DNA from: an uncultured Eubacteriales bacterium
GTDB taxonomy: Bacteria; Bacillota; Clostridia; UBA1212; CASDQQ01
Length of the DNA: 38,261 bases
Direction: 5' to 3'
Assembly (NCBI GenBank): GCA_949282945.1
Contig: CASDQQ010000080.1
Span: forward strand, 1-38,261
Below the pieces are notes generated by a model. It did no database searches and was not told the origin of the DNA. It saw nothing but the letters and a program-made list of their open reading frames with translations. Position 1 is the first letter of the stretch. Each line of letters begins with the position of its first letter. A program made the position numbers and the translations under genes. This document shows positions 1,144-14,461 of the stretch, in pieces.

Positions 1144-1779
1144 TTATTTCCTTTCCGAAAAAACAACATGCAATATACCGCTGTATTCCGCTTCTATAAG
1201 TTTTAAAGCCTGTCCTTTATCCGCACGAAATGTAATACACTCTATACGGTTTTGTTGATCATTCCCGGTTTTATTTACGGCTAATATTTCAAGATTTTTC
1301 AATTCCGGATCTTCTGATACATATGTGGATCCTCCTTCCTGTATATATGTAATCACATCCACTATATCTCCCTTTTCAAGCCTTCCCGAAAAACCCGCCG
1401 CATCGCTTTTAAGACTTACAGAAACTGCTTTTTCCTTTTCAGAAAGCTCATACATAAACGCGTCTTCCGTATTTTTTCTTTCTGTAAATCTCTCCGGAAA
1501 AAGATTGTCTCCCGGAAAAATCTCCGTATTTGAATATTTGCCTGTTATAAAAGATTTTTCTTTTATAATGTTTTCAGGGAGATTGAGTTTCCCCACTTTC
1601 ACTGTTTCCAACATATCGTCTGTTATTAACGTACCGGGCAAAACGGTATCTTTGACCCTTACCACAAAACAGGTATCCTCGTATAAATTTACAGCTGATA
1701 AAACAGCCGTAAAGGCCGCGGCCACAGCTATGATAAATGAGACAGCCAAAAAAAAGTATCTGTTTTTAAATATCTTCAA
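1144..1779 (-). CDS. cpaB: CpaB/RcpC-like SAF-domain pilus assembly protein
   Basis: A 211-residue protein with a TTG start at 1779, chosen because GGAGAG sits six bases upstream. Residues 7-30 form one hydrophobic segment (membrane anchor or uncleaved signal). Residues 40-100 fit a SAF domain (VLPGTLITDDML, then a 'FPGDNLFPERF' stretch). Residues 115-210 resemble the RcpC/CpaB C-terminal domain (VSVSLKSDAAGFSGRLEKGDIVDVI pattern, split around the GDIVDV core). CpaB proteins sit on the outer side of the membrane and help gate the Tad secretin in Gram-negatives. In Gram-positives they are kept as membrane-anchored, wall-facing proteins. It is the first gene of a leftward operon with the CpaE- and CpaF-like genes, read from the promoter at 1871-1900. 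Confidence 0.75.
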   Translation of the reverse strand: MKIFKNRYFFLAVSFIIAVAAAFTAVLSAVNLYEDTCFVVRVKDTVLPGTLITDDMLETVKVGKLNLPENIIKEKSFITGKYSNTEIFPGDNLFPERFTERKNTEDAFMYELSEKEKAVSVSLKSDAAGFSGRLEKGDIVDVITYIQEGGSTYVSEDPELKNLEILAVNKTGNDQQNRIECITFRADKGQALKLIEAEYSGILHVVFSERK

Positions 1780-1870
1780 ATATATCTCTCCTTTCCATTT
1801 TGATTGGATATATTTTAAGATTTAACCTGTATTGCCTCAATTATTTCCCCTATTTCCCATATTTTATTTT

Positions 1871-1900
1871 TTTATAGCGCAAACAAGAGCTTTCTTTCAA
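1871..1900 (-). promoter_or_regulatory. Promoter of the Tad operon
   Basis: On the minus strand TTGAAA (1900-1895) and TATAAA (1876-1871) are separated by 18 bases. Each matches 5 of 6 consensus sigma-A positions. This leaves a leader of about 85 bases before the TTG start of the CpaB-like gene. Confidence 0.6.
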
Positions 1901-1960
1901 TTTTGATTCTTTCAGTAACAAAAAATTAAACTATTTTTAAAATTTACCAGTAAAAATCTA

Positions 1961-1988
1961 TTGACTTTTTATTTCAAAAATATATACT
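1961..1988 (+). promoter_or_regulatory. Promoter of perR-rbr
   Basis: TTGACT at 1961-1966 and TATACT at 1983-1988 with a 16-base spacer, 41 bases upstream of the perR ATG. It is a good sigma-A type promoter, directly followed by the PerR/Fur-type box. Confidence 0.75.
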
Positions 1989-2007
1989 AATAATAGTAAT
2001 TATTATT
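1989..2007 (+). promoter_or_regulatory. Fur/PerR-type operator
   Basis: The 19-base near-palindrome AATAATAGTAATTATTATT starts just after the -10 box, so it covers the expected transcription start. By eye it matches 14 of 19 positions of the classical Fur box. Bound PerR here would block its own transcription and that of rbr, which is the usual autoregulation in this family. The site is seen in the sequence. Binding is inferred. Confidence 0.65.
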
Positions 2008-2029
2008 GATTGTGAGGAGGTTGGAACTG

Positions 2030-2428
2030 ATGATAAGATATAGTAAACAGCGGGAATGTATACTCAATTATCTAAATTCGGTTACATGCCATCCTAATGT
2101 TGAAAAGATCTATACTGAGGTAAAGAAAGAAATTCCCAATATAAGTTTAGGGACAGTATACAGAAATCTGAATCAGCTTGCCGAATCAGGAAAGATACAA
2201 AAGCTTATAACGGGAAACAACGCCGAGCATTACGACGGAAGAACTGATCTGCACAGCCATGTAATATGCAGAAAATGTGGTAAAATAGAAGATATTTGCA
2301 CAGATTTTTCCGAACATATTGAATTGGAAAGTATCAGCGATTACAGTAATCTTTCCTATAAGCTCACATTTTACGGAATATGTCCCGAATGTTCCCGCGA
2401 AGAGAACGCTAAGATCAATAACAGTTAA
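2030..2428 (+). CDS. perR: Peroxide-responsive repressor PerR (Fur family)
   Basis: 132 residues. The ATG at 2030 is chosen because AGGAGG at 2015-2020 sits nine bases upstream; the longer frame would start inside this ribosome site. An N-terminal winged helix (to about residue 65) is followed by the dimer domain. The structural zinc site is C80/C83 and C118/C121. The regulatory metal ligands of Bacillus PerR align exactly as H21, D69, H75, H77 and D88. The aspartate at the last position, where Fur proteins have glutamate, marks this as PerR rather than Fur. The protein senses peroxide by metal-catalysed histidine oxidation and derepresses its targets. It probably forms an operon with the reverse rubrerythrin gene 73 bases downstream. 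Confidence 0.9.
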   Translation: MIRYSKQRECILNYLNSVTCHPNVEKIYTEVKKEIPNISLGTVYRNLNQLAESGKIQKLITGNNAEHYDGRTDLHSHVICRKCGKIEDICTDFSEHIELESISDYSNLSYKLTFYGICPECSREENAKINNS

Positions 2429-2501
2429 TTTTTCTTCTCTTTTTGGAGAAGGCTTAAGATTAGATATAAATTATTTTTTATTTTGAAAGGAGATTTTTAT
2501 C

Positions 2502-3047
2502 ATGAAAAAGTTTGTATGTCCAGTTTGCGGTTATGTTTATGAAGGAGATTCCGCTCCTGAAAAATGTCCACAGTGCGGGGTTCCGGGCAGTAAGTTCAAA
2601 GTTAGCGAAGAAAATGAAATGGCTTGGTCCGCAGAGCATGTTGTAGGGGTTGCAAAAGATGTTGCTCCTGAAATAGTCGAAGGACTCCGTCAGAACTTTA
2701 ATGGAGAGTGCACAGAAGTTGGTATGTATCTTGCAATGGCAAGAGTAGCTTTCAGAGAGGGATATCCGGAAATTGGAATGTACTGGGAAAAAGCAGCTTA
2801 TGAAGAGGCTGAGCACGCGGCAAAATTTGCTGAACTCCTAGGAGAAGTTATAAGCGATTCTACTAAGAAGAATCTTGAAATGAGAGTTATGGCTGAAAAC
2901 GGCGCTACCGACGGAAAGACCCAACTTGCTAAAATGGCTAAAGAACAGGGGCTTGACGCAATACATGACACCGTCCACGAAATGGCAAGAGATGAAGCAC
3001 GCCACGGAAAAGCTTTTGCAGGCTTGTTAAAGAGATATTTCGGTTAA
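2502..3047 (+). CDS. rbr: Reverse rubrerythrin (peroxide/oxygen reductase)
   Basis: 181 residues behind GAAAGGAG. A rubredoxin-type [Fe(SCys)4] domain comes first (CPVC at 6-9, CPQC at 22-25), followed by a four-helix ferritin-like di-iron domain with the ExxH pairs seen in YEEAEH and ARDEARH. Classical rubrerythrin has the opposite domain order, so this is the 'reverse' type known from clostridia. That type reduces hydrogen peroxide (and oxygen) with electrons passed from NADH through rubredoxin partners. It lies directly after perR and ends at a strong terminator, so it is most likely derepressed by peroxide. Confidence 0.9.
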
Positions 3048-3077
3048 AATTAAGTCCATACAAAAATAATCACTAGG

Positions 3078-3117
3078 AAAAGCCATCCCAAAAGTAAAAT
3101 TTTGAGATGGCTTTTTT
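3078..3117. terminator. Bidirectional terminator after rbr
   Basis: A hairpin with arms AAAAGCCATC and GATGGCTTTT, extended by an inner AAAA/TTTT pairing, is followed by TTTTTT on the plus strand and TTTT on the minus strand. It sits between the convergent rbr and the surface-protein gene ending at 3194. Confidence 0.85.
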
Positions 3118-3193
3118 AATATTCTAAAATTTCGGGGCTGTATTATAAAGAGTCCACAAACATGCACAATTTTTATGTAGTTGATTTACTTTA

Positions 3194-4015
3194 TTACTTA
3201 ATTGCCTTCCTTCCAAGTCTAAATCCGCCTAATGCCGCTATAGCCGCAGTCAATAATGCGGCAGCTGCAGAAACATCCGCCGTCTTTGGTATTTCTTCTT
3301 CAGTAGTACTGTCTCCTGTATCATTTCCTATACTGTCATCCGCGCCGTCGTTCTTGCTGTCATCAGTTTGTTCTACTCCGTCAGGAGAGTCGGTACCATA
3401 GAATATAAAGTCTGCCAGTTTCGCTGAAATTCCCGAAGCTTCCTCAACCTCTACTTTTACATAAATATCATAGGTGCCTTGCGCCAGTTTTACAGAGGCA
3501 GTCATAGGTTCTCCTATCCCGTCATAAAAATCCTCCCAATGTTCAGTTGCCAGTCCGTCGGCAATTTCCTGTTCCTTATCATATCCTAAAACTCCCACTA
3601 AATTCGCGTCTGTGATAGCATCTGCCTGCGCTGTTCCAGGATGTGCGGCATATACATAATATTTTGCGGATTTTACAGAATCGTTGTTCATATCATAGCC
3701 ATAGTAAATTGCTATTTCAACCGCATCTCTTGTCAACGTTGCATTAGAAAACAGGAATAATGCGCCATCAAGATTTACTTCTGTATAATATTCTGCCGTA
3801 GATGCAGCATCATTCAATCTTGCAGGAGCAGGGTACTTTTCAGCATCGATCAGCTCACCATAAAGTTCCATACCTCTCTTTTCTCCAAAAAAATTGCGGT
3901 ACGCAATCAAGTCTGCCTTTTCACCATTTAAAGGGTAGTAGGATGCTCCCCATACTTCCGTAGAAAAGGCCAAAATCACTGTTAGACATAATAAAGCGGC
4001 TAAAAATTTCTTCAT
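3194..4015 (-). CDS. Wall-anchored surface protein, paralogue of the next gene
   Basis: 273 residues. The ATG at 4015 is preferred over the TTG at 4021 because GGAG lies nine bases before it but only three before the TTG. A signal peptide is likely cleaved near residues 23-24 (VWGA). The mature protein begins with a YRNFFG motif (39-44). A beta-rich domain follows to about residue 205, ending in a SAKLADFIFY strand. Then comes an acidic Asp/Ser/Thr linker, IPKTAD as a variant of the LPxTG sortase motif, a hydrophobic helix and a basic tail (GRKAIK). I do not recognise the domain. It is clearly related to the protein encoded at 4131-5024, which shares the YRNFFG start, a GTAQ..A.TD stretch, YDIYV/YDIWV and the SAKLA strand. 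Function is unknown. Binding of a surface ligand or glycan is possible but only guessed. Confidence 0.8.
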   Translation of the reverse strand: MKKFLAALLCLTVILAFSTEVWGASYYPLNGEKADLIAYRNFFGEKRGMELYGELIDAEKYPAPARLNDAASTAEYYTEVNLDGALFLFSNATLTRDAVEIAIYYGYDMNNDSVKSAKYYVYAAHPGTAQADAITDANLVGVLGYDKEQEIADGLATEHWEDFYDGIGEPMTASVKLAQGTYDIYVKVEVEEASGISAKLADFIFYGTDSPDGVEQTDDSKNDGADDSIGNDTGDSTTEEEIPKTADVSAAAALLTAAIAALGGFRLGRKAIK

Positions 4016-4130
4016 TCTCAAAAACTCCTTTCATAAAATATATTTTTTGATATAATACCGAATCCTTTTTATGTACAAATACTTTAGATTTTACGTCATG
4101 TCTCGCAAATACCAAAACAAATTTTATATA

Positions 4131-5024
4131 TTATTTATTTTTTTTGTTTCTTATCATTAAAATGACGATACCGACAATCACCACAGCACAAATTACGATT
4201 ACAACGGTCCAAACCAAGGCACCCGCGTTGTTTATGTCTGTTGGGGCGGATTCGCCAGACACAGCATCATTTCCTAAAGACTGGCTTTGGGGAACTGTTG
4301 TTTTGGGAGCTCCAGTGGTCATAGCAGGCGTAGGTTCCTTTGTAAATGTGGCCGCAATAATATCCGGGTTGCTGTAAAAATTAATTTCCGCCAGTTTTGC
4401 AGAAACATTGGAAGTATTATCCTCAAACGTTTCCTCTAACTCAGGCATATCCACTAAAACCCAAATGTCATAAACTCCTGCTTTTATATTCGTAGTCTCT
4501 ATCATAGGGCCATAGTTGGTGTCGCTATAAAAATCGTTCCAGGAAGCCGTGGATACATCTTCATATTCCTGATCTTCTTTGTTATAGCTTAGTACTGCCG
4601 CCAAATAAGAGTCTGTCATGGCAGTTTCCTGTGCGGTTCCTACAGGAGATACATATACATAGTAATCAGCTGAAAGTACTAGCCCATTATATCTATCAAA
4701 ATCATAAAAGATAGCTATTTGATTGGAATCCTTTGTAATATCGGCATTTTCAAACTTAAAAATCGCGCCGTTCCAGTTTGCTTCTGAATGATAGAATTCA
4801 GGGCGAGCGCCTTCATTTACATATACGGGAATAGGATATTCTTCCGCCGTAATTTCCACTCCATTTACCATTTCCGGTTCACGCAGCTTACCAAAAAAAT
4901 TTCTGTATGTCAGCATATCTCCTTTTGTGGCCGGATCATAAGAAGCAAATACGTTGACAGACGCAGTTGCCAACATGAATATGGCCATGACTAAAAACAT
5001 AGTTCCTTTAAAATACTTTTTCAT
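4131..5024 (-). CDS. Membrane-anchored surface protein, paralogue of the previous gene
   Basis: 297 residues behind AGGAGG. The signal peptide is likely cleaved after A27. YRNFFG at 40-45 opens the same beta-rich domain as in the 3194-4015 protein, to about residue 215. A Thr/Pro/Ser-rich spacer follows, then a C-terminal transmembrane helix and the tail IRNKKNK. Unlike its paralogue it shows no LPxTG-like motif, so it is probably held by the membrane helix. The gene begins 12 bases after the GxGYxYP lipoprotein gene and is almost surely co-transcribed with it. The product therefore acts outside the membrane, possibly as a binding partner of that enzyme-like lipoprotein. No family name can be given with confidence. 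Confidence 0.8.
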   Translation of the reverse strand: MKKYFKGTMFLVMAIFMLATASVNVFASYDPATKGDMLTYRNFFGKLREPEMVNGVEITAEEYPIPVYVNEGARPEFYHSEANWNGAIFKFENADITKDSNQIAIFYDFDRYNGLVLSADYYVYVSPVGTAQETAMTDSYLAAVLSYNKEDQEYEDVSTASWNDFYSDTNYGPMIETTNIKAGVYDIWVLVDMPELEETFEDNTSNVSAKLAEINFYSNPDIIAATFTKEPTPAMTTGAPKTTVPQSQSLGNDAVSGESAPTDINNAGALVWTVVIVICAVVIVGIVILMIRNKKNK

Positions 5025-5036
5025 ATCATTTCCTCC

Positions 5037-7298
5037 TTAATTAATGCCAATCTCTCGTATAGCACTTTCCCCATTTTTCAATTCAATGATTACTGAACTA
5101 TTTTTTCCTTTAAATTTAGAAAGGTCAATTTTTATAGTCTGATAATTCCCGGCTGTATCTATTGCAGTAAACTCTGTTGCATTACATATTCTATGATCTT
5201 CAAACACCCGCACTCTCATGAAGGTATCCTCAAAATTGCCAACTATCTGCAAAGTTACCGTTTCCTTATCCGGAAGTATAAAATTGTTGTATAAATAAAC
5301 ATCTGGTTCATATCCACCATTGTCCGCGGGTATGGATATAGAAAGTACCCCGGCTCCGCCCTGATTTTGAATATCACAAGTCACGTTATCTGCTGCCGCC
5401 CTGGTAATCTGCGTTGCCCATGAACCTATGCCATTTTTAAATTCTGTTCTGAGAGAACTACTGTAAGGCAAAGAAAAGACCTTTTTCGTTCTTATGTAAT
5501 AATGCAGCATCTGTTCATATTCAGTACTGTTTATCTGATCATAGTGAAAGCCTGTATAATCCGGATCGGTAACATAGTTTCGAGAAGTCTTATCTTTTAC
5601 ATTTTCAGTCATAATTTCAATCAATTCATCGCAGGAAACCACTACCACATCTTCATCCAACATAGAAACTAACGTTGCGTAATCCTTTTCATAAACATCA
5701 GAAAGTCCGGCTGTCAAAAACATAACGCTGTACCCTTCGATCACAGTAGCGTCTTTAGTACGGTGATTAATCTTATATGCCAATTTTGCTAATTCTACCT
5801 CGCGCTTCTGGTCGCCGTCGCCATCCGTTACATTGGCAAACCAAGTACCGCCTCTTAAGCTTACAAAAGGTTTTCCGTCAGACCATGTAACACCGCCGGC
5901 ATTGAAATCGTCCAGTACATATCTGTCCCCAAAATAAAAGAATCCGCCTTTTACCTCTTCATATTTGGAAAAGGTATCCGCTACAAACTGTAATGTAGAG
6001 CTATTACGATTTCTGTCCTGTGCCATTTCCCCGCTTATAGCATTTCCGTCAAAGATCATAGCAATATTAGAAAGTCCTGTTTGCCCCATATAATAAGCCG
6101 TGGTTTTTGCAAAGTCGTTTAGTTTATCTTTAGGCCAACAACCTGCATTAATATATCCTACTCCGGAAAGAGAACACACAAAATTATCATTGCTTGTCAT
6201 ACTGCTATAGTAATGTGTTAACAAGTGAGGCGCAAAATCATATACTAGCGGCGTCAACGTCCAACTTACAGCTCCAAAACGGTCTACATTTTCGTTAAAC
6301 CCTCTGTCCCCTAATACATCGCTTAAATGATAAGTCATATTATCGCCGTCAGAAAGCATAAAAGCAACATAATGCTTATCTGTACCCTCAAAATTATTAC
6401 TTTGTTCCTTTTGTGAAACCTTTTCGTTATTATCATTGGCGCTTAACGCCGCATATACTGTAAGATTAAAAGCATAATCGCTAGGAAGAGTCATCACCTG
6501 ATATTTAGAACCCATTTCTACTCCTTTAGGCTCATTATTATGCCACCCCATAATTATACCCATATCATCCATCCACTCATAGATCTGTTCCAGTTCATTC
6601 CATGTTTTATCCGTGTAAGCATAAAAATATAACGCGCCAATAGCAATTCCAAAATCCCTTAAATGATAAATACCCGGTCGTTGGTTTAAGATAATGCCTG
6701 TATTTAAAGTAGTTTTATATTTTTCAAACAACTCATACGAAGTATATTGGGTGCCGTCCTCCATTTGTACAAATCCCATAGACTCTACTTTATCTTTCAC
6801 AGTATCTCCTACTACCAGATAACTTTCCTGTCCGGAAATAGTACACGCATTGTTAATAGATTGGGCAATTTTTTCTTCTTCCTCCTGATAATTGTCATCT
6901 GTTACGGAAACATAACTGACGTAGCCCATGTTCTTGATTTCTTCCTTATATTGTTCCAGCAACGCATATGGATCCTCCACTTTCACAAAATTAAATCCAT
7001 AATCTTCCTCTAGCACTTTGAACCACTTTCGTTCTGCGCCAGAATAGGAAATAAAGAGCCTGGACTCCTTTTTAGCCAAAATACCTTGCAGCGAAGAAAA
7101 TAAAACTTTTTCCTCAAAAGAAAGGTTATCTCCTGAGATATATTGCATCTCTTTATTTATGTCCACATTTAAGTGAGAAAAATATTCTCGGTATCTTGCG
7201 ACTTCCGTTGTACCCATGTTTGTTTTTCCCTCCTGACATCCGGAAAAAGTTCCGAGTATTAGTGCTATTGTAAAAATCAAAAATAAAAATTTTTTCAT
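5037..7298 (-). CDS. GxGYxYP-family lipoprotein, putative glycoside hydrolase
   Basis: 753 residues behind AGGAGGTG. The N-terminus is a lipoprotein signal with lipobox FSGC (acylated C21). Residues about 60-270 fit the N-terminal region and 300-600 the catalytic-like region of the GxGYxYP family. Markers are FMLSDGDN (313-320) and the SGVGYINAGCWP stretch (378-389), in which the last two positions of the name motif are Asn-Ala rather than Tyr-Pro. A beta-sandwich of about 120 residues at the C-terminus (from about 630) looks like a carbohydrate-binding module. The family is annotated as putative glycosidases from structure and gene context; no reaction is established. Near the N-terminus it has YREYF (36-40), reminiscent of YRNFF in the two surface proteins behind it. 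It is the first gene of a leftward operon, divergent from the AraC gene. Confidence 0.75.
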   Translation of the reverse strand: MKKFLFLIFTIALILGTFSGCQEGKTNMGTTEVARYREYFSHLNVDINKEMQYISGDNLSFEEKVLFSSLQGILAKKESRLFISYSGAERKWFKVLEEDYGFNFVKVEDPYALLEQYKEEIKNMGYVSYVSVTDDNYQEEEEKIAQSINNACTISGQESYLVVGDTVKDKVESMGFVQMEDGTQYTSYELFEKYKTTLNTGIILNQRPGIYHLRDFGIAIGALYFYAYTDKTWNELEQIYEWMDDMGIIMGWHNNEPKGVEMGSKYQVMTLPSDYAFNLTVYAALSANDNNEKVSQKEQSNNFEGTDKHYVAFMLSDGDNMTYHLSDVLGDRGFNENVDRFGAVSWTLTPLVYDFAPHLLTHYYSSMTSNDNFVCSLSGVGYINAGCWPKDKLNDFAKTTAYYMGQTGLSNIAMIFDGNAISGEMAQDRNRNSSTLQFVADTFSKYEEVKGGFFYFGDRYVLDDFNAGGVTWSDGKPFVSLRGGTWFANVTDGDGDQKREVELAKLAYKINHRTKDATVIEGYSVMFLTAGLSDVYEKDYATLVSMLDEDVVVVSCDELIEIMTENVKDKTSRNYVTDPDYTGFHYDQINSTEYEQMLHYYIRTKKVFSLPYSSSLRTEFKNGIGSWATQITRAAADNVTCDIQNQGGAGVLSISIPADNGGYEPDVYLYNNFILPDKETVTLQIVGNFEDTFMRVRVFEDHRICNATEFTAIDTAGNYQTIKIDLSKFKGKNSSVIIELKNGESAIREIGIN

Positions 7299-7729
7299 GC
7301 CGCACCTCCTTTAAACATTCACATTTCGGAGATTTCAACCGTCATCTCCTTCTACTTTAGAATCGATAATGTCTGCAAAATCCTGCATAATGCCGCTTCA
7401 AGCAGCTAAAATCTTTTCATCATATCTTGAAAAGCCATATGAGCAGAAACGGAGCATAAGTCTGAATTTTCAGAAGAGATTTAAGACAAAAATTGCGACA
7501 CTTCCAAATAGTCCAATAAGCTCTCCGCCGTCATACCTTATAGCTTTTACTTTACGAAAAGTTCTTTTTAAAATCTCTTTCCCCCTGTTTTACAAAAACC
7601 ATTTCTTATTTTTTTTGATGACCACATTGACATGGTAAAATAGCAACTGTTATAATGCAAGACAATATAAAAAGAAATTTCAGACATATATTGCTATACC
7701 TATATCTATGGAGGAAGGGAGAAATATAT
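7299..7729. other. Divergent regulatory region between the GxGYxYP and AraC genes
   Basis: 431 bases with no credible gene. It holds the strong AraC-gene promoter (7627-7656) and, on the other strand, presumably the promoter of the GxGYxYP operon. I could not find a convincing -35/-10 pair for the latter, so it may need an activator. An 89-codon open frame here (7369-7638) lacks a ribosome site and a recognisable product. Confidence 0.5.
7627..7656 (+). promoter_or_regulatory. Promoter of the AraC-type regulator gene
   Basis: Perfect TTGACA (7627-7632) and perfect TATAAT (7651-7656) with an 18-base spacer, 74 bases before the ATG. TGACCACAT at 7619-7627 abuts the -35 box and recurs upstream of the GH3 gene. 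Confidence 0.75.
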
Positions 7730-8521
7730 ATGGACGTTTTTTATGAAAACAGAGGCAATATCATCGACAAATATCCCTTCGGAGGGCTGTCTTTTCTACC
7801 GCATTTTCACGAACAAATAGAATTGGTCTATCTGAAGGAGGGAAGTACACGTGTAGAAGTCAATTTCAAAGAGTTTTCCGCAAAAGACGGAAATTGGATC
7901 ATCATTTTCCCCAACCAGATCCATTCTTATATAGATACACGACCCTGTTCCGGACATATCTTCATTTTTTCCGCAGCGCACTGCAGCCGGCTGACCAATA
8001 CCTTTATGAACATGAGCCCTGTCTCCCCCATAATATCTTCTATACCTCCGAAACTGTCGGAAATGATCCTAAAAGAGATGTTAAATGAGTCAGAGCAGGT
8101 TTCGCCATATTCTGCTTTGATCGAAGACGGATATTTGTGGATTTTACTTGGAAAGTTGTTTCAATCTATGGAATTTGAGCCCATCAGTTCCTGTACTGAA
8201 AGCACCATTAAAAACGTGCTTACTTACTGCCTTTCCAATTATAAAGAAGCAATTTCTTTGGATTCTCTCGAAGAAAACCTCCATATCAGTAAATATCATA
8301 TTTCTCATTTATTTTCTCAAAAAATGAAAATCAGTTTCAGCAATTATATCAATAAGCTCCGTCTTAATGAAGCAAGTCGTTTGTTAAAAGAGGGAAAATC
8401 TATCACAGACACTTCTTTTGAGTCCGGATTCGGCTCAATCCGTTCATTTAATCGCGCGTTTACCCATCAGTTCGGGGTTTCTCCGTCTGAATATAAAAAA
8501 CTATTTATCCACAATAGTTGA
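7730..8521 (+). CDS. AraC-family transcriptional regulator
   Basis: 263 residues from the ATG at 7730, preceded by GGAGGAAGGGAG; the longer frame from 7655 has no ribosome site. The N-terminal part (about residues 15-95) is a cupin-like sensor domain (FLPHFHEQIELVYLKEG start, IIFPNQIHSY). The C-terminal 100 residues hold the double helix-turn-helix, including ISKYHISHLFSQKMKISF and the signature GFGSIRSFNRAFTHQFGVSPSEYKK. Such proteins usually bind a sugar and activate adjacent carbohydrate genes. It sits between the divergent GxGYxYP operon and the co-directional GH3 gene, so both are likely targets. No terminator separates it from the GH3 gene. Confidence 0.85.
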   Translation: MDVFYENRGNIIDKYPFGGLSFLPHFHEQIELVYLKEGSTRVEVNFKEFSAKDGNWIIIFPNQIHSYIDTRPCSGHIFIFSAAHCSRLTNTFMNMSPVSPIISSIPPKLSEMILKEMLNESEQVSPYSALIEDGYLWILLGKLFQSMEFEPISSCTESTIKNVLTYCLSNYKEAISLDSLEENLHISKYHISHLFSQKMKISFSNYINKLRLNEASRLLKEGKSITDTSFESGFGSIRSFNRAFTHQFGVSPSEYKKLFIHNS

Positions 8522-8589: not shown

Positions 8590-8624
8590 AATTGAATAAC
8601 AAACTATATAAAGGAGTTTTTCGT

Positions 8625-11600
8625 ATGAAAGAATTTTTTGGAAAACAGATTGTTCTCTCAGTGATTCTTATTACTGTTGTGGTAATCCTTATTGTGAGCA
8701 TTATATTTTTACTTATTTCAAAATACTCATCTATAAATTCGCCTGACTTCTATTACACACGCCCTGAGGTATCTCTGTGCCAGGAAACAGCAGAAGAAGG
8801 TTTTGTCTTAATGGCAAATAGAAACCATTCTCTCCCCATCCCAAAGGATAAAGTCAAAAGTGTGGCCCTCTTTGGCGGTTGTGGCGCTATGCGTACTGCC
8901 AAAAGCGGTACTGCCGCAGGAGACACCAAATCCGATTATGTAACTAGCATTTATCAGGGCTTAAAAAATGCGGGTTACAAGATCACTTCCGAAAAATGGC
9001 TGCAGGCATTTGACACCCAATATGCGGAAGAACTTGCTCAATGGGAATTTACCGTATGGGGACATTTTAAAATAGAAGAACCGCTTCTTACGGATGACGA
9101 CATACAGGAAGCTTCCGCTGATACCGATACTGCCATTTATGTAATACGCAGAATTTCGGGTGAAGGTACCGACAGAGTCAATGAAAAAGGAGACTATCAG
9201 TTAAGCGAAACAGAATATGCCAATCTAAAAAAAATTGGCGGATCCTTTGACAACGTCATCGTTATCTTAAATACCTGCGGCGTTATAGACACTAAATTCT
9301 TTGATGAGATTTCCGGTCTGGATTCCTTATTATTTGTATCTTTGGGCGGTATGGACATCGGTGACGCAGTCGCTAACGTAATTTCAGGCAAAGTCACTCC
9401 TAGCGGGAAACTTACGGATACCTGGGCAAAGAATTATGAAGATTATCCATCTTCCGCTAATTTTGGAACATGCAATGTAAACTATTATGAGGACATTTAT
9501 GTTGGATACCGTTATTTTGAAACCTTTACAGAAGCAAGAGACAAAGTAAACTATTGCTTCGGCCACGGACTTTCCTACACCAAATTTAATATTGCCTGTA
9601 AACAGTTCAGCTACGGCCAAGACGGTACGGTTACCGTTACATTGGAAGTTAAAAACACTGGCGACTATGCGGGAAAAGAAGTTGTACAAATTTATTATGA
9701 CGCCCCCTCCGGAATGCTAGGGAAAGCTGCAAAATCTCTTATTGCCTTTCAAAAAACAAAGCTTTTACTTCCCGGAGAGACTCAGACAATTGTTTTCACT
9801 TTACATCAGAATGACATGGCCAGTTATGATGATACGGGCAAAACGGATTATAAAGCGGCTTATGTATTAGAAGCGGGAGAATATAAGGTTTACGTCGGCA
9901 ACTCTGTACGAAACGCGGGAGAAAATATGGCCGGCTCTTTTTATATTCCTCAGACTGTTTGTGTAGAGCAGCTTTCTACATTATGCTCTCCTGTAGATTT
10001 AAAAGAACGTCTTATTTCAAATGGCAGCGGACAGATACTTACAGAATCTTTGGAGGATCAGATTTTTGAAGTCCATGACGATCATGAAGAATTTTTAAGC
10101 AAAGAAATTATCGGAACCGGTTCCGAATTTTTAGATTTTTACGATGTCTATAAAAATCCAACTCTTTTGGATAACTTTATTGCCCAACTGACCAACGAAG
10201 AACTGGTAGATCTGGCGCAGGATAAAGACCCGAACATTGGCAGCGGCAATATCGGCGATCTTGGAAAATATAACATTCCTGCCGCAATTTCAGCGGACGG
10301 CGCCGCGGGTCTCCATGTAGGGTCTAAGATAGCGTGGCCCTGCCCCACTTTGATGGCTTCTACCTGGAACATAGAACTTCTTTATAAAATAGGAGAAAGT
10401 ATAGGTACAGAAGGTAAAAATGCCGGTGTAGATTTCTGGTTAGCCCCGGGATTAAATATTCACAGAAACCCTTTATGCGGAAGAAACATAGAATACTATT
10501 CCGAAGATCCTCTTCTGAGCGGCATAGTTGCAAGTGAAGTGACAAAAGGCGTACAGTCTCAAAGAGTATCTGTAGTAATAAAACATTTTGCCGGCAACGA
10601 GCAAGAAACTGACAGAGGGGAAAGTGACAGCCGAATTTCAGAGCGCGCCCTCAGGGAAATTTATCTAAAAAGTTTTGAAATCGCTGTAAAAGCCGGAAAC
10701 GCATGGGCTGTCATGACTTCCTATAATTCCATTAACGGTGTGGATACTGCTGAATATGGTGATCTTATAAACGGTATTTTAAGAGGCGAATGGAGCTTTA
10801 AAGGTTTAGTAATGACTGACTGGGGTAACGGAAGCACCCCTTACTTAGAAGTTCTCGCCGGCCATGACATACGCATGGGTTCTCCAAATAACACAATCAA
10901 TTTGGACGCTTTAGCCCGCGGATATATTACCCGGGGCCAATTACAGCAAAATATAAAAAGGATTCTCTCCACCATGCTGAAAACAAATGTTATGGAGCGG
11001 AACTCCCGCTCAGTAGAATATACAAACCTTTCCTGCGAAACAATATCTACTTTTACTACCGGCGAAACCACTTTACATTTAAAAAGTACTGTTACTAATA
11101 CCTATACCGTTACGTTATCCATTGACGGCAATAAATCCGGCACTCAGGATCTTTCTCTTATGTCCGGAGAAGTTGTTCTTTCTAGTGACTACACATCAGA
11201 ATATGACGCGGCCGCGGACAAAACAAAGCTTATCTTCCCAAAAGTTGTTATCCCTCATGGGTTACATCAACTTTGCTTAAATATAAAACACGCTTTACAT
11301 TGCGTTGAATTTATTCCTTTAAAAAGGCCCCTGGCAATTGCTTCTGTTCCAGAGGAAATACAAAAATCCGTGGATTTCGGAACTTCTTTTGAAAGATTGT
11401 CTCTGCCAACGCAGGTAGAAATCACATTGACGGACGGAACTTCCTTAGAATGTAACGTAGTTTGGAATACTAACTCCTACAACCGGCATAGAGCCGGCAT
11501 ACAGCAGTTAGTAGGAGAACTGGAATTGCCTGCCTTCATTGATAATCCTCAAAACCAGAAAATTTCCGCAGAAATTATAGTTTCTGACAGCAGTTCCCAA

Positions 11601-12266
11601 ATTACCGGTATCTTTATAAGTACCCCAAATAATACTAAATTAATACGCGGAGAACAGTTACAATTGACCGCCACTGTTGAGGGACTTGATAGCTTCAGTG
11701 AGGAAATTATCTGGAAGACTAGCAGTTCCCGTTCTACTATCAGCCCAGAAGGTATTCTTACTATCGGCCAAGACGAATGCGACAACGTCATTACAGTTAC
11801 GGCCTGCGCGGCGGACAATACTAATTATTCAGATACCATAACCATCACGGTAAAAGATACTTTTAAAAAGATCCTTTCTGAAGGAGAAACCCGTATAAGA
11901 TTAATAGATTACGATCAGGCTTCTTCTAACTTTTCAAAGGAAAATTGTAATGACGTCGACAGCAGTTCAAATTTAACAAACCTGACCGGCGGGCAATGGG
12001 TAGAATTTAATATTGTAGTTGAAAAGTCCGGTATCTACTCCATTGATTTCAGATATGCTTCTCCTGTAGATTCCGCAGGCCCTATAAATATTCTTATCGA
12101 CGGATCTCATTCGGCTTCTGCTGAAGGCATGAAAATTACCGGCGGTTGGCAAATATGGGGCACACATACGATAGATCAGATATTTCTCCCCGCTGGCGAG
12201 CATATTCTTCGCCTGGACTGTCAGGGACATAGCTACAACCTGAACTGGATCCGAATATATAAATAA
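8625..12266 (+). CDS. Membrane-anchored GH3 glycosidase with swapped domains, Big and CBM6 modules
   Basis: 1213 residues from the ATG at 8625 (AAGGAG upstream). One hydrophobic segment (about residues 8-31) anchors or exports it. The GH3 domains are in reversed order. First comes the alpha/beta-sandwich domain (about 60-310, ending GHGLSYTKF), then the fibronectin-III-like domain (about 320-430), then the TIM barrel (about 510-790). The barrel has K653-H654 of the KHFAGNEQ motif and the nucleophile D732 in MTDW. The tail holds a Big_4-like domain (about 905-988), a Big_2 domain (about 990-1080) and a CBM6-like module (about 1092-1213). The reversed order is known from rumen beta-glucosidases such as those of Ruminococcus and Butyrivibrio. 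The likely role is removal of terminal beta-linked glucose (or xylose) from glycans at the cell surface. The exact substrate is unknown. Expression is probably driven by the adjacent AraC regulator. Confidence 0.85.
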   Translation: MKEFFGKQIVLSVILITVVVILIVSIIFLLISKYSSINSPDFYYTRPEVSLCQETAEEGFVLMANRNHSLPIPKDKVKSVALFGGCGAMRTAKSGTAAGDTKSDYVTSIYQGLKNAGYKITSEKWLQAFDTQYAEELAQWEFTVWGHFKIEEPLLTDDDIQEASADTDTAIYVIRRISGEGTDRVNEKGDYQLSETEYANLKKIGGSFDNVIVILNTCGVIDTKFFDEISGLDSLLFVSLGGMDIGDAVANVISGKVTPSGKLTDTWAKNYEDYPSSANFGTCNVNYYEDIYVGYRYFETFTEARDKVNYCFGHGLSYTKFNIACKQFSYGQDGTVTVTLEVKNTGDYAGKEVVQIYYDAPSGMLGKAAKSLIAFQKTKLLLPGETQTIVFTLHQNDMASYDDTGKTDYKAAYVLEAGEYKVYVGNSVRNAGENMAGSFYIPQTVCVEQLSTLCSPVDLKERLISNGSGQILTESLEDQIFEVHDDHEEFLSKEIIGTGSEFLDFYDVYKNPTLLDNFIAQLTNEELVDLAQDKDPNIGSGNIGDLGKYNIPAAISADGAAGLHVGSKIAWPCPTLMASTWNIELLYKIGESIGTEGKNAGVDFWLAPGLNIHRNPLCGRNIEYYSEDPLLSGIVASEVTKGVQSQRVSVVIKHFAGNEQETDRGESDSRISERALREIYLKSFEIAVKAGNAWAVMTSYNSINGVDTAEYGDLINGILRGEWSFKGLVMTDWGNGSTPYLEVLAGHDIRMGSPNNTINLDALARGYITRGQLQQNIKRILSTMLKTNVMERNSRSVEYTNLSCETISTFTTGETTLHLKSTVTNTYTVTLSIDGNKSGTQDLSLMSGEVVLSSDYTSEYDAAADKTKLIFPKVVIPHGLHQLCLNIKHALHCVEFIPLKRPLAIASVPEEIQKSVDFGTSFERLSLPTQVEITLTDGTSLECNVVWNTNSYNRHRAGIQQLVGELELPAFIDNPQNQKISAEIIVSDSSSQITGIFISTPNNTKLIRGEQLQLTATVEGLDSFSEEIIWKTSSSRSTISPEGILTIGQDECDNVITVTACAADNTNYSDTITITVKDTFKKILSEGETRIRLIDYDQASSNFSKENCNDVDSSSNLTNLTGGQWVEFNIVVEKSGIYSIDFRYASPVDSAGPINILIDGSHSASAEGMKITGGWQIWGTHTIDQIFLPAGEHILRLDCQGHSYNLNWIRIYK

Positions 12267-12394: not shown

Positions 12395-14461
12395 ATGACA
12401 GATAAAAGAATATTTTTCGGAAAATGGATATGCGCGGAAGAATTTAACAAAATAAACATAAGCGGCAAACCCGCGCCCCAAAATTTTCATTCGGTCTTTA
12501 AAAAAGTTTTTACATTGAAGGCCGTTCCTAAAAACGCGAAAATACGCATTACCGCCGACGATTATTATAAACTTTATATTAATGGAAAATATGTTGGAGA
12601 GGGTCCGGCCCCGGGATATAACTTTGCCTACAACTATAATGAATACGATCTTTCAAAGCTTCTTCGCGCAGGTGAAAATATTATTAAAGTTAAAACATAT
12701 TATCAGGGACTTGTAAACAGAGTATGGTGCAGCGGCGACGGAAGGCAGGGAATGACCGCGGATATCTATTGTAACGGTGAGCTTTATTTTTCTACAGACT
12801 CAAGCTGGCTTTATGCTGTAGATCTGTCATACACAGATAAAAGAAAAACAGGCTACGACACAATGTTTTTAGAGGACAGGGATTTGCGGAAAGGTTTAAC
12901 TCCATGGAAAAATTGCTGTGAAACAGATCACGACTATATATTTTCACCCGAGCCGTTTCCAAGTATCCAGGTTTATCCCAAAGAACCCGTCTGCAGCAAA
13001 ACACTGGAAAATGGAACCGTATTTTTCGATTTTAAGCAGGAAATGGCCGGATGTCTTAAATTACATATATACGGGAAAAGCGGAGATAAAATAATTATCC
13101 GCGCGGGTGAAGAGTTAAATGCTGACGGCTCAGTGCGATATGATATGCGCTGCAACTGTTTATATGAGGAGTACTGCATATTGGACGATGGGCTGAACAT
13201 TATAGAACAGTTTGATTATCGGGCATTTCGTTATGCTGAAATAGTCCCCTGCAATGTTCAGGAATTAAATATAGAAAAATTTGAATTAATGGTACGCCAT
13301 TTTCCATTTTCAGATCGGTCATGTGTTTTAGAGACTGATGACGAAATCCTGCGCTCAGTTTTCACGCTTTGTAAAAATACTATTCATTATGGATGCCAGG
13401 AAGTATACGTAGACTGTCCCACACGAGAAAAGGGACAATATATAGGCGACGCGGCAATTTCAGGTTTTTCTCAATTCTGGCTTTCCGGTTGCGACGGCAG
13501 ACTTTTAAAAAAGGCAATTATGAATATAGCTCAGTCTTTGACTTATGACGGTGAGATACTGGCCGTTACACCCTGCTCTCTCAGGCAAAAAATTGCCGAC
13601 TACACTCTGCTGTTTCCGCTGATTTTATTTGATTATTGCCGTTTTACAAACGACATGGATTTTTTAAAGGAAATGCTTCCTGTATGCGAACAGATCAATC
13701 AATATTTTTCAAAATTTTCAAGGGCGGACGGCCTGCTTGAACATGTTTGCACACAATGGAATATGGTGGATTGGCCGGAAAACCTTCGGGATAATTATGA
13801 TTTTAAGCTTACCGACCCTATCGGAGAGGGGTGTCATAACGTAATAAACGCTTTTTATATAGGAAGTATCATAACAACGGAAAAAATAAAAAAGAGCCTT
13901 GATATTGCCTATACTCCCATTTCCAGTCCTCTTATAGAAGCATTTCATAAGTGTTTTTACGATAAAGAAAAGTGTCTTTACACAGACAGCGAAGTAAGCG
14001 CTCATTCCTCCCTGCACGCCAATTGTATTCCGGTATTTTTTGGATTTTCTCCGGAAACAGGCAGAGAAAAACTCGCTAAATTTTTATTGAACAAGGGATT
14101 TAGCTGCGGAGTGTATATGTCTTATTTTTACTTAAAATCCCTTTGCATTTTAGGAAAGTACAGCGATGTGTACGATATGATAATTTCCAGGGAGAAGCAT
14201 TCCTGGTACAATATGCTAAGAGAAGGCGCTACCACCTGTTTTGAGGCCTGGGGCAAGGAAGAAAAATGGAATACAAGTCTTTTTCACCCATGGGCATGCG
14301 CTCCTGTACGCATTTTAATAGAAGATCTGTTAGATATGGAAGGGAAAATGCATCGGGATACTTCCGTCATACGCTTGCCGAAAAAAGCCGGATATTTTAA
14401 GCTTGCCCTAAATACCCCTGGTCACGGTACATTATATATTGAAGCAAATAAAAAATCCTGA
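12395..14461 (+). CDS. GH78 alpha-L-rhamnosidase
   Basis: 688 residues behind CGGAG. It has no signal peptide, so it is probably cytoplasmic. The N-terminal beta-sandwich (about 45-150) has the accessory-domain pattern of bacterial rhamnosidases (ADDYYKLYINGKYVGEGP). The (alpha/alpha)6 barrel follows (about 310-640). The catalytic-site motif DCPTREKGQYIGD places D340, E345 and D352 with exactly the spacing of D567, E572 and D579 in Bacillus RhaB. E617 in TTCFEAWG corresponds to the general base E841. A short beta domain closes the chain. The enzyme removes terminal alpha-L-rhamnose by inversion. It is short for the family because it lacks extra N-terminal modules. The cytoplasmic location implies import of rhamnosylated oligosaccharides or glycosides, but no sugar transporter is encoded nearby. 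Confidence 0.9.
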   Translation: MTDKRIFFGKWICAEEFNKINISGKPAPQNFHSVFKKVFTLKAVPKNAKIRITADDYYKLYINGKYVGEGPAPGYNFAYNYNEYDLSKLLRAGENIIKVKTYYQGLVNRVWCSGDGRQGMTADIYCNGELYFSTDSSWLYAVDLSYTDKRKTGYDTMFLEDRDLRKGLTPWKNCCETDHDYIFSPEPFPSIQVYPKEPVCSKTLENGTVFFDFKQEMAGCLKLHIYGKSGDKIIIRAGEELNADGSVRYDMRCNCLYEEYCILDDGLNIIEQFDYRAFRYAEIVPCNVQELNIEKFELMVRHFPFSDRSCVLETDDEILRSVFTLCKNTIHYGCQEVYVDCPTREKGQYIGDAAISGFSQFWLSGCDGRLLKKAIMNIAQSLTYDGEILAVTPCSLRQKIADYTLLFPLILFDYCRFTNDMDFLKEMLPVCEQINQYFSKFSRADGLLEHVCTQWNMVDWPENLRDNYDFKLTDPIGEGCHNVINAFYIGSIITTEKIKKSLDIAYTPISSPLIEAFHKCFYDKEKCLYTDSEVSAHSSLHANCIPVFFGFSPETGREKLAKFLLNKGFSCGVYMSYFYLKSLCILGKYSDVYDMIISREKHSWYNMLREGATTCFEAWGKEEKWNTSLFHPWACAPVRILIEDLLDMEGKMHRDTSVIRLPKKAGYFKLALNTPGHGTLYIEANKKS

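Follow-up and report, generated by a model that had tools for sequence, protein, structure and literature searches.

The window, by which I mean the whole stretch of 38,261 nucleotides analysed here, is a contig (C80) of an uncultured Eubacteriales bacterium. Three genes of interest lie side by side on its minus strand. The first of the set (5037-7298) encodes a putative glycoside hydrolase of the GxGYxYP family (PF14323, 128.2 bits against a cut-off of 27) with an N-terminus that looks, by eye, like that of a lipoprotein (FSGC). Its end lies 12 nt before the second gene, which encodes a protein of 297 amino acids here called P2 (4131-5024, minus strand). The third encodes P1 (3194-4015, minus strand), 273 amino acids long if translation starts at the ATG, which is preceded by GAAAGGAG. 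A TTG offers an alternative start (3194-4021), but the ATG is preferred.

P1 and P2 are paralogues. They are 40% identical over 230 amino acids (BLASTP, E 1e-46), and their domains align with a score of 370, as against a maximum of 60 among 500 shuffles, so the resemblance cannot be put down to chance. An earlier note on this DNA had held that the two proteins have in common a YRNFFG motif and a whole domain, and so they do. Behind a signal peptide each carries the domain, some 190 residues long, and YRNFFG stands close to its beginning. The domain extends over 3389-3946 (minus strand) in P1, as judged by the paralogue alignment and by a match to a profile of which P1 is itself a row, and over 4365-4946 (minus strand) in P2, as judged by the same alignment and by a structure model. 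A third copy of the domain, with YRNFFG again identical, is found in a protein of 305 amino acids elsewhere in the genome (C125:227-1144, L086). That protein has a membrane-type tail, and its contig of 4.8 kb carries no matching sortase-type partner.

Some of the neighbouring genes are also concerned with glycans. On the plus strand, Pfam matches identify a divergent regulator of the AraC family (7655-8521), possibly the regulator of the locus, a GH3 enzyme with a CBM6 module and, by eye, an N-terminal membrane helix (8592-12266), and an enzyme of the alpha-L-rhamnosidase family (12395-14461). The GH3 enzyme has its domains in reversed order, the GH3 C-terminal domain and Fn3 standing ahead of the N-terminal domain, with Big_4 and CBM6 near the C-terminus. 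Just before the AraC gene (7627-7656, plus strand) is a perfect sigma-70 consensus, TTGACA-18-TATAAT, 12 of 12 positions, with TG preceding the second hexamer, in a scan that overall found such sites no more numerous than in shuffled sequence. The annotated start of the AraC gene at 7655 overlaps this match, so a later start is likelier. On the other side of the set, an inverted repeat seen by eye near 3076-3118, between P1 and a rubrerythrin gene, could be a shared terminator; it is absent from the list produced by the pattern scan. Near the edge of the contig (414-1779, minus strand) an RcpC/CpaB-like protein adjoins a P-loop NTPase-like protein, which suggests a Tad/Flp-type pilus locus.

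What is the shared domain? Searches of Pfam, NCBIfam, PHROGs and the sequences of the PDB gave no convincing match to it; the weak ones had E values of at least 0.015, reached no curated cut-off, and for P1 and P2 fell mostly on spacers or tails. The earlier note did not recognise the domain and named a match to a well-characterised family as a result that would refute its reading; by sequence no such family was matched. In particular, PF03422 (CBM6) gives no match to P1 or P2 at E up to 1, against 51.4 bits for the GH3 enzyme of the window, and with the same threshold Pfam shows no NEAT domain in either protein. DUF916 and WxL are absent from the Pfam matches of the nine window proteins that were scanned. 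A comparison of the profile of the shared domain, a very thin one, with the CBM6 of the GH3 enzyme found nothing.

Among the genomes searched the domain is also rare. A profile made from the three copies finds it in one of 31 genomes of the order and in one of a class-wide sample of 391, in each case that of the window itself. A peptide-pattern search of genome contigs, possibly not including the window's own genome, matched 59 stretches, none of which was confirmed. With P2 as a single query there were matches in seven other genomes. In six of these the match begins no earlier than residue 191, and so covers the end of the domain, the spacer and the tail; in one it begins at residue 153. Close homologues that might show whether IPKTAD is conserved were found in this genome only, and the one further copy there is of the membrane type. 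A membrane-type protein beside a rhamnosidase-like gene (C43:8591-9736, L087, in the window's genome, G000) matches the domain faintly (27% over 103 amino acids, E 3e-4) and is possibly a distant relative.

Then there is the matter of fold. An AlphaFold model of the P2 domain, made from two sequences, is of low confidence (mean pLDDT 53.9, pTM 0.63). Its first 57 residues fall below a pLDDT of 50, and the better parts are residues 61-80, 91-120 and 151-170. A second model, with P1 first, is poorer (pLDDT 48.4, pTM 0.53). A Foldseek search with the P2 model, a check that the earlier note had suggested, gave a CBM6 as the best match in the PDB (E 3.7e-3); the model, low as its confidence is, resembles a CBM6. 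VIA-align agrees: its top 14 PDB rows (Z 8.4 to 6.8) comprise ten CBM6 modules and four xylan- or arabinoxylan-type enzymes, the best being a CBM6 with Z 8.4 and an rmsd of 3.3 over 101 aligned residues, again on a model of pLDDT 53.9. From Z 6.7 down come unrelated proteins (XRCC1, Cry toxins and others), and a Z of about 8 may signify no more than an arrangement that is common. I take these neighbours as a lead towards a carbohydrate-binding jelly roll, not as proof of one. Any resemblance to CBM6 modules lies in the predicted structure of the P2 domain; in sequence neither protein matches PF03422.

The two proteins part company at the C-terminus. In P1 the domain is followed by an acidic spacer (37% D/E) and then by EEEIPKTADVS, a hydrophobic stretch and GRKAIK; this tail occupies 3197-3292 (minus strand), with a match to the pattern PKT[G/A]D at 3275-3289. 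P1 thus has the whole layout of a sortase substrate: signal peptide, motif, hydrophobic stretch and positive C-terminal tail. In P2 there is a spacer rich in proline, threonine and serine (36% P/T/S), a transmembrane helix and the lysine-rich tail RNKKNK. Profiles of the two kinds of tail match, in this genome, 15 places of the sortase type (E up to 1) and 28 of the membrane type (E up to 0.5), counting the tails used to build them, which match by construction. Fourteen of the former, 18 of the latter and two further proteins with a C-terminal helix were compared. When each tail was left out in turn, all 34 returned to their own class, the classes having been assigned beforehand from the motif. 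Against a sortase-type model from which it had been withheld, the tail of P1 scored 40.6 bits, and against the membrane-type model -1.2; the corresponding scores for the tail of P2 were 9.0 and 25.2. The claims made earlier, that P1 ends in a sortase-type IPKTAD plus helix, that P2 has a Pro/Thr/Ser spacer with a plain transmembrane helix, and that one domain is therefore joined to two types of anchor, all withstand this comparison. Tails of the second kind, with a Pro/Thr spacer, a transmembrane helix and a KKKK-like end, are abundant in the order: with E no higher than 0.001, 28 of the 31 genomes show them, one as many as 53 times (G028, G030 and G021 are examples).

The sorting motif of P1 deserves a closer look, since the bond to be cut would be T-A, not T-G. 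Sorting-type motifs in this genome include IPKTAD, VPKTGD, PPKTGD, PAKTGD, PVKTGD, IPVTGE, VPVTAD and others. Alanine where glycine is usual had been remarked upon, and unusual it is, but it is not unique: among the tails that were read there is one other with T-A, the VPVTAD on contig C17. P1 reached none of the curated LPXTG anchor models, its only NCBIfam match being NF053819 (E 0.24, 11.9 bits, cut-off 47). One might suppose from this that IPKTAD is never processed, that the tail of P1 has decayed or serves as an alternative transmembrane anchor, and that both proteins stay in the membrane. C. difficile offers a precedent, in that SPSTG and SPQTG are cleaved as peptides in vitro, yet proteins bearing these look-alike motifs were unanchored in cells, according to the passages available (PMC5569036). 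I think this improbable, given the score of the P1 tail with a model of other sorting tails, the second T-A-D tail, and a class B sortase in the genome. Moreover, NCBIfam gives one class D sortase model the title 'LPxTATN-specific', indicating that alanine after threonine is in use elsewhere.

Which sortase might act on P1? The genome encodes five: three of class C (over cut-off), one unclassed and one of class B. Those of class C adjoin proteins with LPETGG or LPxTG tails, pilin-like by eye, and the unclassed one adjoins an LPQTG protein. The class B sortase, on contig C136, is over the TIGR03064 cut-off, as is one in 30 of the 31 genomes of the order. Another genome of the order, G017, has many such tails, and the search that gave these figures showed a single candidate in it. 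A class B sortase is thus the likely enzyme for tails of this kind, and so for IPKTAD. In C. difficile, the relevant passages say, a single SrtB with a housekeeping role serves (S/P)PXTG signals, for example SPKTGD (PMC4155245). The likeness is in a single class B enzyme and in signals of that sort; the differences are that IPKTAD begins with isoleucine and has alanine at the cleavage position and that the window's genome has four further sortases.

The arrangement is not confined to the window. This genome contains six adjacent, same-strand pairs in which a sortase-type and a membrane-type protein have a common ectodomain: P1 and P2 themselves (C80, 43% identity over 190 amino acids), C95 (46%), C148 (LamG, 63%, the membrane partner also having, by eye, a phosphoesterase-like region), C122 (LamG, 90%), C64 (32%) and C17 (47%, CBM35-like though far below cut-off). 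BLASTP E values for the ectodomains are about 1e-44 or lower for C80, C95, C148 and C122, 2e-23 for C17 and 2e-21 for C64. Five types of domain are represented, as judged by sequence: those of C80, C95, C64 and C17 do not match one another, and the two LamG loci belong to the same Pfam family, with no direct match between them. One domain on two anchors is thus a design repeated with unrelated domains. In five of the six pairs the gene for the sortase-type protein precedes its partner; at C80 it follows. Matches across the two classes occur between distant genes as well (C47/C60, C93/C122a, C136/C95). For nine of the 15 sortase-type places no matching partner lies next door; a contig end cuts three of the nine (C108, C93 and a second place on C95, the last outside the BLASTP comparison).

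Eleven further mixed pairs, the two members of each lying at one locus, turn up in two other genomes of the order, bringing the total to 17. In G017, three of ten sortase-type proteins are matched at their locus by one of the membrane type: on C36 (CAJFUB010000036.1; 62% over 336 amino acids), on C40 (36% over 239) and, with one gene between, on C2 (46% over 249). G406 has eight, found in stretches covering 22 of its 29 tail matches. This genome is apparently identical to G019, C53 having the same length and gene coordinates in both, and so belongs to the same order. Its adjacent pairs are two on C43 (SVJB01000006.1, Oscillospiraceae MAG SIG424; 55% and 38%) and one each on C40 (35%), C29 (24%, E 7e-12), C27 (35%) and C11 (55%), the last with the sortase-type motif NPPTSD, which the pattern caught only by way of a nearby T-A-E. 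Genes intervene in a pair on C12 (30% over 114 amino acids) and in a second on C40 (35%). The count leaves out two sortase-type proteins of G406 whose matching neighbour lacks a C-terminal helix (C45 and C21), as well as a similarity between sortase-type proteins within the C40 cluster, weaker than the matches there between classes. G017:C36 and G406:C43 have one arrangement in common: sortase-type gene, membrane-type gene, GH127 lipoprotein.

Five of the eight non-sortase partners in G406 (both on C40, those on C27 and C12 and one on C43) end in a different, conserved tail, here called GCG-type, which may not be a plain membrane anchor. Of the form ...GCGSSSAIAQVMLILGAALIIKKRK, or similar to it, the tail is strongly conserved, each of the six instances seen having Gly-Cys-Gly ahead of the helix (among them L180, L183, L176, L188 and L185 of G406), and five of the six belong to the non-sortase partner of a mixed pair. 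The three such proteins of G406 that were scanned reached no NCBIfam cut-off; a match below cut-off points in the direction of MYXO-CTERM tails, to which I take the GCG-type to be somewhat similar.

Mixed pairs are common in three genomes, but this is no law of the order. Twelve stretches around tail matches, from 34 listed places outside G000 and G017, gave no mixed homologous pair in nine other genomes (the stretch from G019 coming from the same genome as G406), where the comparison took in proteins flagged by a simple rule as having a C-terminal helix. Two of them gave homologues both of the sortase type, at G021:C207 (one gene between) and G023:C89, and another such pair is at G017:C48. 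Seven further stretches gave two pairs of membrane-type homologues, both in G004. At G028:C160 (L193) three homologous proteins lie together (391-1533, 1728-4274 and 4393-5730), of which the third alone has a tail of the sortase type, and at G001:C6 a sortase-type and a membrane-type protein adjoin without homology.

These counts bear on a different view of the pairs: that a tandem duplication is followed by exchange of tails, that the point of the duplication is divergence, each copy coming to bind another glycan, and that tails shuffle freely, the anchors being incidental. Very similar tails do occur on unrelated domains, same-anchor pairs do exist, and the partners in 16 of the 17 mixed pairs are only 24-63% identical. 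Random assignment of tails would by itself make about half of all pairs mixed, and the six out of six in this genome would then arise with a probability of roughly 0.015 (taking 15 sortase-type and 22 membrane-type tails and assuming independence). A result of this size counts against plain duplication and only modestly against free shuffling of tails. Set against this view are the C122 pair, whose domains remain about 90% identical and yet have two tails (the DNA is about 85% identical as far as the spacer and about 48% beyond it), and the excess of mixed pairs over pairs of sortase-type proteins around sortase-type genes, 17 to 3 in the stretches read, a count in which pairs of membrane-type proteins away from such genes do not figure. 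I consider incidental anchors a somewhat unlikely explanation, though a serious one.

Consider now what lies beside the pairs. An enzyme or putative enzyme named by Pfam adjoins ten of the 17, the ten being those that were scanned. The neighbour is GxGYxYP at C80 and C148, DUF2961 at C95 and C122, an alpha-L-arabinofuranosidase without apparent signal peptide at C64, GH127 at G017:C36 and at one of the G406:C43 pairs, DUF4838 at G017:C40 and G017:C2, and GH32 at G406:C11. Nine of the ten appear to be held in the membrane, by a lipobox (as judged by eye) or a terminal helix. Neighbours of this kind tie the pairs to the use of glycans, and within the pairs themselves there are domains of carbohydrate type: LamG in two of the window's genome and CE2_N in one of G406. 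The same linkage could be read in another way, in which the domains are adaptors between proteins, binding the neighbouring enzyme or each other to form a surface complex like those proposed for the csc clusters. The operon-like association with a lipoprotein enzyme would fit, and csc clusters do join a membrane-anchored CscA with an LPxTG-type CscD in proposed complexes, as the relevant passages have it (PMC1534035). It is difficult to reconcile adaptors with domains that differ from locus to locus and include several folds of carbohydrate type (LamG, CE2_N and, if the model can be trusted, one like CBM6), and I regard the idea as quite improbable.

I propose instead that the pairs display one glycan-binding module at two depths of the envelope, so as to concentrate substrate for an enzyme of the membrane. 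The paralogy, the two classes of tail, the recurrence and the enzyme neighbours are observed; from them I infer the anchoring chemistry, the ligand and the hand-over, and I give the whole an even chance. P1 and P2 would be two copies of one beta-sandwich domain, probably glycan-binding. The class B sortase would cleave P1 at IPKT|AD and attach it to peptidoglycan, where P1 would catch polysaccharide or fragments of it. P2, with similar specificity, would remain in the membrane on a stalk rich in Pro and Thr, next to the GxGYxYP lipoprotein enzyme of the upstream gene, and would hold the glycan near that enzyme and the importers. The suggestion in the earlier note of a two-stage capture chain is in this sense plausible; glycan would pass from one copy to the other. 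Membrane-type spacers in the seven usable pairs run to 23-74 residues, counted from the end of the alignment and so understated where the alignment enters the spacer (left out are C148, whose partner is larger, and G017:C40, whose alignment extends into the tails). Such spacers may be too short to clear a Gram-positive wall of typical thickness.

A broader proposal is that the order builds many glycan systems on one plan: a binding module is duplicated, a sorting signal is added to one copy and a membrane (or GCG-type) tail to its twin, and the two are set beside a membrane-held enzyme, giving for each glycan a wall-to-membrane relay of a single domain type, with tails as interchangeable cassettes across unrelated domains. 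I put this forward tentatively, as possible but doubtful, the more so because five of the 17 non-sortase partners are GCG-tailed and because the two LamG loci reduce the number of domain types.

Comparable systems are known. In the Isd/NEAT and Shr-Shp-HtsA relays of S. aureus and S. pyogenes, as described in the relevant passages, surface proteins with different anchors (Shr has a C-terminal transmembrane domain and charged tail) carry binding domains that are related and pass a nutrient, haem, towards a lipoprotein of the membrane (PMC2266757, PMC5026354). The hand-over proposed for P1 and P2 would be analogous. The differences are that haem is not a glycan, that those relays use one domain family, and that P1 and P2 match no NEAT model. 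Haem relays are not known to have pairs of paralogues at locus after locus, or a neighbouring glycosidase. The csc clusters (CscA-D) of Lactobacillus plantarum and relatives are likewise repeated, are proposed to deal with plant sugars, contain some ConA-like lectin domains, and combine a membrane-anchored with a sortase-anchored protein. In them, so far as the passages describe, the membrane and wall proteins come from different families (DUF916 versus very short LPxTG peptides), whereas P1 and P2 share a domain (PMC1534035). GxGYxYP hydrolases, the family to which the operon's first gene belongs, are tied to carbohydrate loci and occur with CBM6, LamG and PA14 domains in other proteins, according to passages of PMC4071793; at the P1/P2 locus the putative binding modules sit on proteins of their own, with anchor-type tails. 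Neither the haem-relay nor the csc accounts, as far as these passages go, describe pairs that share a domain and recur with several domains unrelated to one another. A literature search for a binding domain present both in the wall and in the membrane found no description in titles and the starts of abstracts, which is weak evidence of novelty, as subscription literature is little covered.

If the proposal is true, then repeated, domain-matched pairs on two anchors would be a glycan counterpart of the haem relays. How bulky fragments of glycan are transported across a thick Gram-positive wall to the enzymes and importers of the membrane is, to my knowledge, poorly understood. The pairs would also supply a simple genomic signature, neighbouring paralogues with different tails, by which receptors may be found, including new families of binding modules like the shared domain of P1 and P2. 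As such pairs are built on several unrelated domains, probably sugar-binding ones, the bacterium may use one scheme over and over to catch food sugars at two levels of the cell envelope.
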